Below are positions 9,520-26,268 of a stretch of 64,000 nt of DNA, piece after piece. The translations under genes were made by a program, and so were the position numbers. Origin of the DNA: Streptomyces sp. NBC_00443 (GTDB taxonomy: Bacteria; Actinomycetota; Actinomycetes; Streptomycetales; Streptomycetaceae); the NCBI RefSeq assembly GCF_036014175.1, contig NZ_CP107917.1:8432001-8496000 (forward strand). The letters are read 5' to 3'. Each line of letters begins with the position of its first letter. The first letter of the stretch is position 1. The notes under the pieces are model-generated. The model did no database searches. It worked only from the letters and a program-made list of their open reading frames with translations, and was not told the DNA's origin.

Positions 9520-9796
9520 AGCCCACGATGTGCTGGTTGGGGAGACCGATAAGAGGGTTGTTTTATGTGTCCGCAGTGACGCTGGATCCCCAATGCGAGC
9601 GAACTTGGCAAAAAGGGACGCCAATCCGCGTTCGGATCGTGTAAATGCCGAGTTCCGGGCGGGTTACCGGCGGTTGACCGGCGGTGTTCATCCGCCCCTC
9701 ATGGGAGTTCGATGTCGCGGGGAATAGGTTGACCCTGTAAGAAGCCGATGAGCTGCCAGGACGTGCCTGGCACGGTGACCCGTGATGGGGGCGGAC

Positions 9797-11089
9797 ATGT
9801 CAATGCCGAAAGGGTCGAATGTTCCGGTGCCGACGACGGCACTGCGGGTCGAATTGGGCTGGCGCTCCGGACCGGGCGTGCCCGACGCGGACGCCTCGGC
9901 GCTGTTGCTGGTCGGCGGAAAAGTGCGCTCCGACGCGGACTTCGTCTTCTACAACCAGCCCGAGCACTCCTCCGGCGCCGTCCGGCACGAGGGCAAGCGG
10001 GACGCCGGCGGCCGGGTGACCGACAGTGTGCTCGTCGACCTGGCGCGCGTGGAGCCCGCGATCGAGACCGTCATCCTCGCCGCCTCCGCGGACGGCGGAG
10101 CGTTCGGCCAGGTCCCGGATCTCCACATCGAGGTCAAGGATGCCGCGCAGGGCACCGCCGTCGCCCGCTTCGACAGCACGGGCGCCACCGTCGAAACCGC
10201 TTTCGTCCTCGGTGAGTTCTACCGCCGTCAGGGCGCCTGGAAGTTCCGCGCCGTCGGCCAGGGCTATGGCAGCGGCCTGGAGGGCCTGGCCACCGACTAC
10301 GGCATTGCGGTCGACCAGAGCGCGGCATCCGCTTCCGCGTCCGGAGCCCCTCCGGTCGCGCCTCCGATGACCACGCCCGCACCACCGCCGCCGGCGATGC
10401 AGCCGCCCGCCATGCCGCCGGTTCCCCCGCCCGCACCCCAGGCGCCGCCGGTCAGCCTGAGCAAGGTGACGCTCACCAAGGCGGCGCCCTCGGTGTCCCT
10501 GACCAAGCAGGGCGGGACCTCGGGCGCCATGCGCGTCAACCTCAACTGGGAGGTGCGCAAGCAGTTCTCGGGCTGGGCGAGCAAGCTGGGCCGCCCGGTC
10601 GCCATGCACAACGACCTCGACCTCGACCTGTGCGCCCTGTACGAGCTGACCGACGGCAGCAAGGGAGTCATCCAGTCCCTCGGCAACGCCTACGGCGCCC
10701 TGCATCAGCCGCCGTACATCCACCTCGACGGCGACGACCGGACCGGCGCCGTGACCAGCGGCGAGAACCTCACCGTCAACCTCGACCACCAGCGGGCCTT
10801 CCGGCGCATCCTGATCTTCGTGACCATCTACCAAGGTGCGCGTTCCTTCGCCGACCTGCACGCCACGGTCACCCTCACACCGCAGCACGGCGCCCCGATC
10901 GACTTCTCGCTCGACGAGTGCACGGTCCCCTCGACGGTGTGCGCGCTCGCCCTGATCACCAACACCGGCAGCGACCTGGTCGTGCAGCGCGAGGCCCGCT
11001 ACCTGGTGCCCGAGCGCGGGGTGAGCCCGCAGCGCACGGTCGACCACGCGTACGCGTGGGGCATGAACTGGACACCCGGCCGCAAGTAG
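9797..11089 (+). CDS. TerD-family protein with two Ter domains joined by a proline-rich linker
   Basis: A 430-residue cytoplasmic protein. Residues about 1-180 are a TerD domain: ALRVELGW start, [20 protein letters not shown], and the diagnostic end [15 protein letters not shown] linker of about 50 residues rich in Pro and Ala ([19 protein letters not shown]) follows. Residues about 235-430 form a second, TerA-like domain with [23 protein letters not shown] and [10 protein letters not shown], whose acidic residues suggest Ca2+ binding as in characterised TerD. These families are linked to tellurite and stress response, but their biochemical role is unsettled. Start ATG 9797 is chosen for the GGGGG about 7 nt ahead; earlier in-frame starts at 9782 and 9785 lack one. 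Confidence 0.85.
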
Positions 11090-22409: not shown

Positions 22410-24320
22410 TCAGTCGGCGATGTCGACCCCGTATCCGCGTGCGAGGGCGTCCAAGCCGTGGTCGTAGCCTTGGCCGACGGCTCGTAGGCGCCAGACCGGA
22501 CCTCTGCGGTAGATTTCCGCGAGCAGCATGCTGCGTTCGGTGGTGGCGGCGTCCAGGGTGGCCCGGGCGAGAGGTGCCCCGCTGCTGCCGGGGGCCGCAC
22601 CGATCTGGATCGCACCGACCGTTCCGAAGGCGGCGGCGCCGTCGATGGCCGCAGCGACGACGACCTTGCGCGTTGCGGGTGGCAGGGATGCCAGGTTGAG
22701 GGCGATGGTCTGTTCGGCCGGGCCGCCGGTCAGCAGTCGCACAGTTCCGGCGGGGCTCTCCGGAGCTCCGTAGAAGATGAAGTCCTCGTCGAAGGTGACC
22801 TGTTCGTCCTCGTCGAGGAGGAAGGCGACGACGTCGATCTCGTAGTCGGTGTGCGGGGCCCAGCCGGCGGTGACATACCACTCCCGCGCGGGTCTGCCGT
22901 GCGGCATGGGCAGGTCGATGACGCCGCCTCTCGGCATCACGTGCGGTTCCTGAGGCCGGAGAACTTCTTCGACCGGGGCGGTGGCGGGTGGAGTGGTGAG
23001 CCAATGGAGGTCGTGCACGGGGAGTCCAAGGGCAGTGATGCGGCTCATGCGCCGGTCACCCTCCCCTCCCGGCAGCAGTACGACATCGGTGACGCTGGCG
23101 GACAGGTTGACCGCCGCGGACCCGCCCAGCTCGACGACGCGGGTACGAGCCGCCGCGGCATCGGCATGGGCACCACCGAGCACCAGCACGCGACGCCTGG
23201 CCAGGGGCTTGCCCAAGGTGCCGACGGAGGGCTCCGGTTGGCGCGGAGCGGGTACTGACACACCAGAAGCGGCCGTGTGGGGGGTGGCTGCTTCCGAGAG
23301 GGGCGCGGTAGGGGCTGTGACGGGAGCCAACTCCGCGGGCACTACGACTGGTTCCGCTTCCGGCTCAGCCACGGGGACGGCAACGACGGCCGTCGCCTCA
23401 TGCAATGTCCCCGGCCGTACGTCGGCCAGCAGTCGCAGGAAGGTGTGCTCGTCGATGACCGGCACGCCTTCGGCGAGTGCGCGTCGGGCCTTTGCCGAAT
23501 CGGACGCTGGTTCATTGGTGACCAGCACGCTGGTGTGTCGGCTTACGGAGGTCATCATGTTCAGCCCGGCGGCAACCGCCCGCCCGACCAGCTCCGCCCG
23601 GGCATGGGCGGTCTCGCCGGTGATCGCAACTTTCATCCCTTGCTGGAGAGGTCCGGCGGGAATGAGCCGTCCCGGATTGCGGTAGGCGCAGGGGGTCTTC
23701 GGCGGCTTCGGCGTGAACTGCGATTCCGCCCGGGGCGGGCAGGTCACGAGCGGCAAGGGCAGATCGAGCTGTGCTGCCTCGCGCAGGGACGCCCGCAGGA
23801 TTCCGGCCAGTACACGGGTGTCGTCCAGCGCATCGTGAGCACGCTGCTGGGGGACGCCGTAATGGGCGGCGAGGGTACCGAGCTTCATGTCGTCTGTCGG
23901 CGGATCCACCTGGCGATTCAGTGCAAGGGTGCAAAGCCGCTGCGACACCGGCAGCCACATGCGAGCCCGGGCGAACTCGTAGGCCAGGAAGTCGTAGTCG
24001 AACTGGGCGTTGTGGGCGACCAGGACCCGGTCCTGAAGCATCGCTCCGATCCGCCCGGCGACCTGGTCGAACGTCGGCGCACCGCGCAGTCGCTCGACGG
24101 TCAGCCCGTGCACCTCAACCGGTCCCGGATCGCAGCCCGGATTGAGCAGCGTCGAGAACTCCCCGGTCTGCTCGCCGTCCGGACCAATCGTGATCACCGC
24201 GACGGACAGCACGCGGTCTCGCCGGGCTATGAGGCCCGACGTTTCCACATCAACCAAGGCCCAGTCGTAGGCGTAGTCGTCCATGGCGGGCACATCGAAG
24301 GAGGTGGAGACGAGATTCAT
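22410..24320 (-). CDS. DEDDh exonuclease - BRCT - BRCT - TerD fusion protein
   Basis: A 636-residue cytoplasmic protein. Residues about 18-195 are a DnaQ/epsilon-type 3'-5' exonuclease with all five catalytic positions: Asp24 and Glu26 (VDVETSGL), Asp108 (HNAQFDYDFL), His162 and Asp167 (AHDALDDTRVL). Residues about 225-300 and 370-440 resemble two BRCT domains (MKVAITGETAHARAELV and RRVLVLGGAHADAAAA). Residues about 470-636 form a TerD domain ending VWRLRAVGQGYDHGLDAL. The domain set suggests nucleic-acid processing in a stress response; target unknown. A Pro/Glu/Ala-rich linker near 305-365 separates the BRCTs. ATG 24320 or 24284 could be the start; neither has a clear ribosome site. Confidence 0.85.
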   Translation of the reverse strand: MNLVSTSFDVPAMDDYAYDWALVDVETSGLIARRDRVLSVAVITIGPDGEQTGEFSTLLNPGCDPGPVEVHGLTVERLRGAPTFDQVAGRIGAMLQDRVLVAHNAQFDYDFLAYEFARARMWLPVSQRLCTLALNRQVDPPTDDMKLGTLAAHYGVPQQRAHDALDDTRVLAGILRASLREAAQLDLPLPLVTCPPRAESQFTPKPPKTPCAYRNPGRLIPAGPLQQGMKVAITGETAHARAELVGRAVAAGLNMMTSVSRHTSVLVTNEPASDSAKARRALAEGVPVIDEHTFLRLLADVRPGTLHEATAVVAVPVAEPEAEPVVVPAELAPVTAPTAPLSEAATPHTAASGVSVPAPRQPEPSVGTLGKPLARRRVLVLGGAHADAAAARTRVVELGGSAAVNLSASVTDVVLLPGGEGDRRMSRITALGLPVHDLHWLTTPPATAPVEEVLRPQEPHVMPRGGVIDLPMPHGRPAREWYVTAGWAPHTDYEIDVVAFLLDEDEQVTFDEDFIFYGAPESPAGTVRLLTGGPAEQTIALNLASLPPATRKVVVAAAIDGAAAFGTVGAIQIGAAPGSSGAPLARATLDAATTERSMLLAEIYRRGPVWRLRAVGQGYDHGLDALARGYGVDIAD

Positions 24321-24380
24321 GGCGGCAAGGATGATCTGATATCCAGTCCTCCTTCAACCTGTATGGCGATTTGCCCTCAT

Positions 24381-24950
24381 CTAGACCCGTACTTCGCGGG
24401 TCGTTGATTCGTATGGTGTGACCGGTCCGGGGGTGTCCCCGGGCCGGTGGTGTGGCGTTGGGTGTGTCGAAGTCTTCCCGGTCCCCGCGGACACGGTCCC
24501 AGCGTCAGCGCTTTGAAGTAGCGGTTACCTCCGTGGTGGAGAAACGTCTGGGCGCTCTGCCTGTCGTTTCCGAGTTCACTCGTCGGCTGGATCTGTCCGG
24601 TATCGTCGATGGAGTGTGTCCGGGCGGTGCGAGTGCGCTGGTGACGCACAGGCAGGTGATCGAGGCACTGGTGGCCAATCGGCTGACCGCGCCCGCACCG
24701 TTGGTGCGGGTTGGAGACTGGGCCCGCACCTGGGCGGTGTAGGAGGCCTTCGGGATCGACGCCGGCCTACTCAACGACGACCGGCTTGCCCGGGCCATGG
24801 ACGCGATCGCCCCACATCTGGAGCACATCACCGGGACCGTCGGGGCGCGGGCGATCGGAGAGTTCGGCATCGATGTATCCCGCCTGCACTGGGACATGAC
24901 CAGCATGTCCGTGCAGGGCGCTTACCCGGCCGAGGGTCAGGATGAGGACG
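24381..24950 (+). mobile_element. Remnant of an IS1634-family insertion sequence
   Basis: Left part of an IS element: a non-coding end beginning about TAGACCCGTACTTCGCGGG, a hairpin at 24421-24448, then the 5' third of a transposase gene. The right two-thirds are gone; similarity stops near 24950 inside the membrane-protein gene that follows. The exact left end is inferred. Confidence 0.65.
24421..24448. repeat. Strong hairpin in IS left end
   Basis: ACCGGTCCGGGG pairs with CCCCGGGCCGGT (one wobble), loop GTGT. Lies upstream of the transposase frame; IS elements often carry such a stem to block read-through. Confidence 0.5.
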
Positions 24951-25620: not shown

Positions 25621-26268
25621 TTCAGAGAAGGCGTCATCAACCAGGGCCTGTTCTACCTGGCGTGGCTGATGGACCATCGCGCCGAGTTCGAGCACCTGGT
25701 CCGCGACCGGCTCGGGGTGACGGCCGCGTCCCAGGTCCTGTGGAGCGGCCCGCGCCTGATCTGTATCGCTGGCGACTTCACGCGCTACGACGTGCATGCC
25801 GTGCGTGAGCACCGGCGGTCGATCGACCTGGTCCGCTACCGACTCTTCGGCAGCGACTTGCTCGGGCTTGAGACTGTGGCGTCCGCGAGCGGCGTGGCAC
25901 GCCGGGCGCGCCGCCAGGCGGTTGCCCAGGCGGCAGCCGACGTCCAGGGTGCGTCGGTGGTGGAGCTGGCGAGCGCGGTCGACGAGGCACCGTTCGGACT
26001 CGGGGACGGTGTGAACCGTGTCGAGCGCAAGCAGTACCGGGCGTATCAGTGGTTGCGGAACTTCGCCTGCCTCTGCCCGCCGCAGCGCAGCAAGCTGCTG
26101 GTCTACCTGAAGGTCGACCCGCAGGACGTCGACCTCGTGCCGGGATTCACCCGTGACGTGTCAGGTCTCGGTCACCACGGGACGGGTGATCTGGAGGTGC
26201 AGCTGCGTACGCCGAAGGACGTGGAGCGGGCGAAGGATCTGTTCCGGGCCAGCTACGCGGCGGCGTGA
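25621..26268 (+). pseudogene. DUF5655-type protein, 5' truncated
   Basis: The frame is homologous-looking from FREGVINQGLFYLAWLMDH (25621) through the C-terminus, but no start codon precedes it; the first ATG is at 25669, inside the conserved region. The ending YLKVDPQDVDLVPGFTRDV and GTGDLEVQLRTPKDVERA is the DUF5655 domain found at the C-terminus of actinobacterial proteins, probably nucleic-acid related. About the first third or more of the protein is missing. A 199-residue product from 25669 is possible but likely non-functional. Confidence 0.65.

Follow-up and report, generated by a model that had tools for sequence, protein, structure and literature searches.

Gene and domain architecture

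The locus encodes a single protein in which a DEDDh exonuclease domain, two BRCT domains and a C-terminal TerD domain follow one another (Table 1). The window referred to here is the whole stretch of 64,000 nucleotides that was analysed, from contig NZ_CP107917.1 of Streptomyces sp. NBC_00443. The order from exonuclease to TerD along the gene corresponds to descending coordinates, from 24320 to 22410, and no internal stop interrupts the frame counted from its ATG. The first-pass annotation described one fused protein, and this description stands. Two separate ORFs are ruled out by the intact ORF in the window and by the uninterrupted loci of relatives: among the best 80 GTDB loci, only two show frame changes, both near the C-terminus. 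A chance fusion or a pseudogene is ruled out as well, by the selection acting on the gene and by the spread of the family. The full-length AlphaFold model is poor (pLDDT 60.5), and the BRCT2-TerD part was folded separately from a deeper alignment.

Table 1. Features of the fusion gene and its immediate surroundings in the window.
Feature	Coordinates	Strand	Evidence or remark
Exonuclease-BRCT-BRCT-TerD fusion gene	22410..24320	minus	Single intact ORF, 636 aa
DEDDh (RNase_T/DnaQ-like) 3'-5' exonuclease domain, residues 23-174	23799..24254	minus	Pfam and catalytic residues
BRCT1, residues 224-303	23412..23651	minus	Pfam, matches in relatives, conserved T234-G235 and K277
Unconserved linker, residues 304-368	23217..23411	minus	dN/dS
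BRCT2, divergent, residues 369-445	22986..23216	minus	Weak profile matches in relatives and fold
TerD domain, residues 463-630, without the canonical calcium loop	22431..22934	minus	Pfam and fold
Promoter-like block (TTGAAG, 18 bp, CATCCT) up to the ATG	24321..24378	minus	Conservation upstream of relatives
NucS-like/DUF5655 gene, N-terminal part lost, PADLOC PDC-S18 homologue	25632..26268	plus	Decayed neighbour

Exonuclease and BRCT domains

The N-terminal domain is recognized by the RNase_T profile of Pfam with 79.8 bits against a cut-off of 24 (4.4e-22), and the catalytic DEDDh set that had been read from the sequence is complete in the window protein (D24, E26, D108, H162 and D167). These five residues are conserved in relatives, being kept in 78 of the 79 aligned fusions; the single exception lacks the first of them because its ORF starts late. 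Residues 13-313, which comprise the exonuclease and BRCT1, align with the actinobacterial DnaQ-like exonuclease-BRCT family PRK06063/NF004719 of NCBIfam at 385.7 bits, just below the curated equivalog cut-off of 389. The fusion differs from this family in the addition of BRCT2 and TerD and in being accessory and mobile. The predicted exonuclease chemistry is the most secure part of the proposed mechanism. A role in repair or end processing appears more likely than one in replication fidelity because DnaQ-like DEDD exonucleases are dispensable in replicative proofreading in mycobacteria (PMC5636811).

Both BRCT-like domains that had been proposed for the middle part of the protein hold up, BRCT1 by profile and BRCT2 by fold only. 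BRCT1 scores 19.8 bits in the window protein (residues 227-296), just under the Pfam cut-off of 21.3, and exceeds the cut-off in six of the eight relatives scanned. The conserved residues T234, G235 and K277 resemble a phosphate pocket and occupy the phosphate-binding positions of ligase/RFC-type BRCT domains. BRCT2 has no Pfam BRCT match in the window protein; in relatives, BRCT is the most common profile match for this region but a weak one (3 of 28 scanned), and the best sequence match in the PDB is the BRCT domain of E. coli DNA ligase (2owo, E 0.094). Residues 369-445 are conserved about as strongly as TerD. The BRCT2-TerD model has a mean pLDDT of 84, and in Foldseek a large number of BRCT structures align with its BRCT2 part at probability 1.00, among them BRCT1 of Rad4 with an rmsd of 1.4 A over 72 columns. 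It is this modelled fold, not the sequence, that confirms the region as a real, divergent BRCT domain.

TerD domain

The presence of a C-terminal TerD domain, noticed at the outset, is confirmed by the Pfam profile (105.1 bits against a cut-off of 25.3, 4.1e-30) and by the fold, given that the TerD structures from S. coelicolor (3IBZ, TM 0.78 by target) and Klebsiella (2KXT) are among the top Foldseek matches of the model. Canonical TerD domains possess a calcium-binding loop of the form HTGDN...GDDE. This loop was not found in the TerD domain of the fusion, where a shorter loop takes its place; a calcium switch is thus unlikely, and the involvement of Ca2+ initially considered is not substantiated. 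The roles left for the tail are those of a ligand sensor or of a docking module for other TerD proteins. The domain belongs to the same fold and sequence family as the canonical TerD proteins but, apart from the missing loop, differs from them in being joined to a nuclease and in lying outside any ter operon in the window.

There are 18 TerD matches in the same genome. A further TerD protein is encoded in the window itself, at 9782-11089 (435 aa), its second half being a divergent TerD-like region. TerD and TerE are described as forming complexes (PMC4633105); according to a review, TerD may sense nucleotide-like signals, and Ter systems have been tied to phage inhibition (PMC7824862). The fusion resembles the Ter-dependent stress systems surveyed in 2012 by Anantharaman, Iyer and Aravind, for which, as cited in the same two papers, a link of Ter domains to DNA processing and nucleotide-like signals has been proposed.

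Distribution, selection and history of the family

The fusion is not rare; the family is widespread. Of 150 genomes sampled from the same genus, about 25 carry the full fusion, and it is present in at least 80 GTDB genomes, the best 80 matches being mostly from Streptomyces, with two from Actinomadura. It is also found in other genera of Streptomycetaceae and in other families of the class; one copy resides on a linear Streptomyces plasmid (60% identity) and another in Nocardia farcinica (49% identity). Broken copies occur as well, one with a stop (G005) and one with an N-terminal truncation (G053). In the same genome as the window, there is a second TerD of the fusion type that has decayed, its frame being shifted and broken by a stop (L017 and L018; 930 kb).

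In comparisons with close relatives, dN/dS is 0.02-0.09 for the exonuclease, 0.05-0.10 for BRCT1, 0.20-0.39 for BRCT2 and 0.09-0.18 for TerD, and the linker is near neutral at 0.39-1.05. All domains are under strong purifying selection, and the linker drifts freely.

A TerD-less exonuclease-BRCT paralogue, about 45-53% identical to the fusion, is encoded elsewhere in the same genome (G000:C1:7303496, 7.303 Mb), and such a paralogue is likewise present in all 11 other fusion-bearing genomes checked. In the TerD tree, all TerD domains of the fusions form one clade that is recovered in every bootstrap tree (96/96), which implies that the join is old. The sister of this clade is the TerD domain of a second exonuclease-TerD architecture (L195). 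In the exonuclease tree, the fusions appear in several places, with three label changes, and several rows have long branches. The simplest reading of these trees would be that the fusion arose early and that the housekeeping copy later lost the tail in some lineages.

None of the papers covered by the literature search joins TerD, BRCT and exonuclease. The 2012 survey of Ter systems by Anantharaman, Iyer and Aravind, the title of which names DNA-processing, may list this exact architecture. The fusion is a real, conserved and little-noticed family, still unnamed and built from known domain families.

Mobility and the promoter-like element

Several observations bear on the mobility of the gene. 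The fusion is 89-90% identical to the copies in two other genomes (G055 and G374), whereas the housekeeping exonucleases of these genomes are only 77 and 81% identical. In comparisons with two copies of 90% identity, the similarity of the DNA stops on either side about 60 bp beyond the gene, and genomic contexts differ between fusion copies. The GC3 of the fusion is 0.797, compared with 0.895 +/- 0.028 for the genes of the window. By these comparisons, the fusion is evidently an accessory, gene-sized unit that moves horizontally together with its own promoter-like element. A transposase-like remnant with an in-frame stop, recognized by eye, adjoins this element (24431-24950).

The promoter-like block reaches the ATG and contains GGTTGAAGG and ATCATCCTTG, about 14 bases apart; its core, GGTTGAAGG..CATCCTT, lies at 24327-24359. 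In closer relatives, the block is conserved across unrelated contexts, and in distant ones it is degenerate. The pattern has one match in the 9.45 Mb genome, just upstream of the fusion gene, and is matched in 10 of 61 genomes, again always just upstream of a fusion gene as judged from coordinates; a regulon search with this element returned no gene besides the fusion. No ribosome-binding site is visible between the promoter-like block and the ATG, from which we infer a leaderless transcript. On the 3' side of the gene, the hairpin is no better than in shuffled sequence (z 0.56). In distant relatives (e.g., L148 and L163), a GGATGA-N4-TCATCC palindrome that is perhaps an operator is found just upstream of the TTGAAG box.

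Genomic context

Among the best 80 loci, a dynamin pair is encoded divergently from the fusion in 22, an SSB paralogue is found nearby in 12, and a TerC/DUF475 gene is located near the fusion in 7, where WGR and polyprenyl-synthase genes are also encoded. In the remaining fusion loci, no single family accounts for more than 3 of the 82 neighbouring genes. A test for a Ter operon, i.e., for adjacent genes of the terB, terC or telA type, identified no conserved partner among the best 80 loci. In some loci (L147, L149, L150, L151, L152, L159 and L184), genes of the TerC/DUF475, Fur-like and WGR types lie close to the fusion, and these surroundings might represent a stress cluster.

The first-pass annotation placed the gene at the border of a decayed region and took this location as an argument for a defence island. 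The decay is genuine, as the neighbouring NucS-like gene, a candidate defence gene 1.3 kb upstream of the fusion, is truncated, but the defence setting was rejected: around some 50 other copies of the fusion, PADLOC matches are no more common in the nearest genes than in distant ones. The NucS-like/DUF5655 neighbour is not part of the fusion system. In two relatives, a gene of this family is also divergent from the fusion, intact in L117 (5174-6226) and broken in L120.

Proposed function

The domain content, the order of the domains and the intact catalytic residues that had been noted at the outset are supported, and so is the proposal that the protein processes nucleic acids in connection with a Ter-type domain; the assignment of the exonuclease to DNA damage is putative. 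The reading that we prefer, and to which we give about an even chance, is that the fusion is a stress-linked DEDDh exonuclease of the PRK06063 lineage that processes DNA ends and carries a BRCT2-TerD tail, with TerD used for docking or sensing. Under this scheme, BRCT1 would position the nuclease by binding either a phosphopeptide or phosphorylated DNA ends, and the exonuclease would trim 3' ends with two Mg or Mn ions. The TerD tail, as a docking or ligand-sensing module, could tie this trimming to the stress machinery (tellurite, oxidative or genotoxic) of the many other TerD proteins of the cell. The fusion would then add stress-directed DNA-end processing beside the housekeeping TerD-less exonuclease-BRCT protein. 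The proximity of 7 of the best 80 copies to TerC/DUF475 counts in favour of this scheme; the lack of a conserved operon partner, the missing calcium loop and the possibility of RNA as the substrate count against it.

The fusion might instead be a redundant paralogue that works like the housekeeping exonuclease-BRCT protein, with TerD as a passive oligomerisation or stability domain that has no link to Ter stress responses. The two proteins do have the exonuclease-BRCT core in common and coexist in every fusion-bearing genome checked, but TerD and BRCT2 are both under selection and conserved across several families, which makes mere redundancy unlikely. Similarly doubtful is a mobile, self-contained stress or immunity effector in which TerD would sense a small-molecule signal and gate the exonuclease positioned by the two BRCT domains.

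A single-gene anti-phage effector, with TerD recognising an infection signal and releasing the exonuclease to attack the nucleic acid of the phage or the host, seems rather improbable. The patchy distribution of a mobile single gene would fit such a role, as would the PDC-S18 gene next to the fusion here and in the two relatives, the ties of Ter systems to phage inhibition and nucleotide-like signals, and a match to PDC-S48, a phage-defence candidate of PADLOC. The PDC-S48 match, however, consists only of pieces, namely the exonuclease and a second short stretch in the BRCT part, the best piece covering 6-172 of 411, and the housekeeping paralogue scores higher than the fusion (247 against 234 bits). 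Furthermore, PADLOC matches do not concentrate near the fusion, and a phage-borne gene was rejected, as no close copy was found in phage records and viral contigs yielded only TerD matches of about 30%. An end-to-end match to PDC-S48 is lacking for the window fusion, in contrast to the L195 protein, which matches nearly end to end. The latter, from another genus of the family (L195:3052-5325), has 757 aa and combines a PDC-S48-like front (344.7 bits) with an added TerD.

BRCT domains occur mainly in DNA-repair proteins, and the closest sequence relatives of the exonuclease domain are the DnaQ, PolC and DinG exonucleases, so that an RNA-processing enzyme that trims RNA 3' ends in stress, like RNase T or oligoribonuclease, is very unlikely, even if RNase T structures are among the Foldseek matches of the exonuclease and the substrate is not determined by the DEDDh fold.

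The role of TerD is a question that has been around for decades, and here the domain is covalently joined to a nuclease of known chemistry, a join kept under selection over deep evolutionary time. If TerD indeed gates the exonuclease, the fusion would represent a direct link between a Ter domain and DNA processing inside one polypeptide. The family thus offers a simple test case for the action of Ter domains in nucleic-acid processing.
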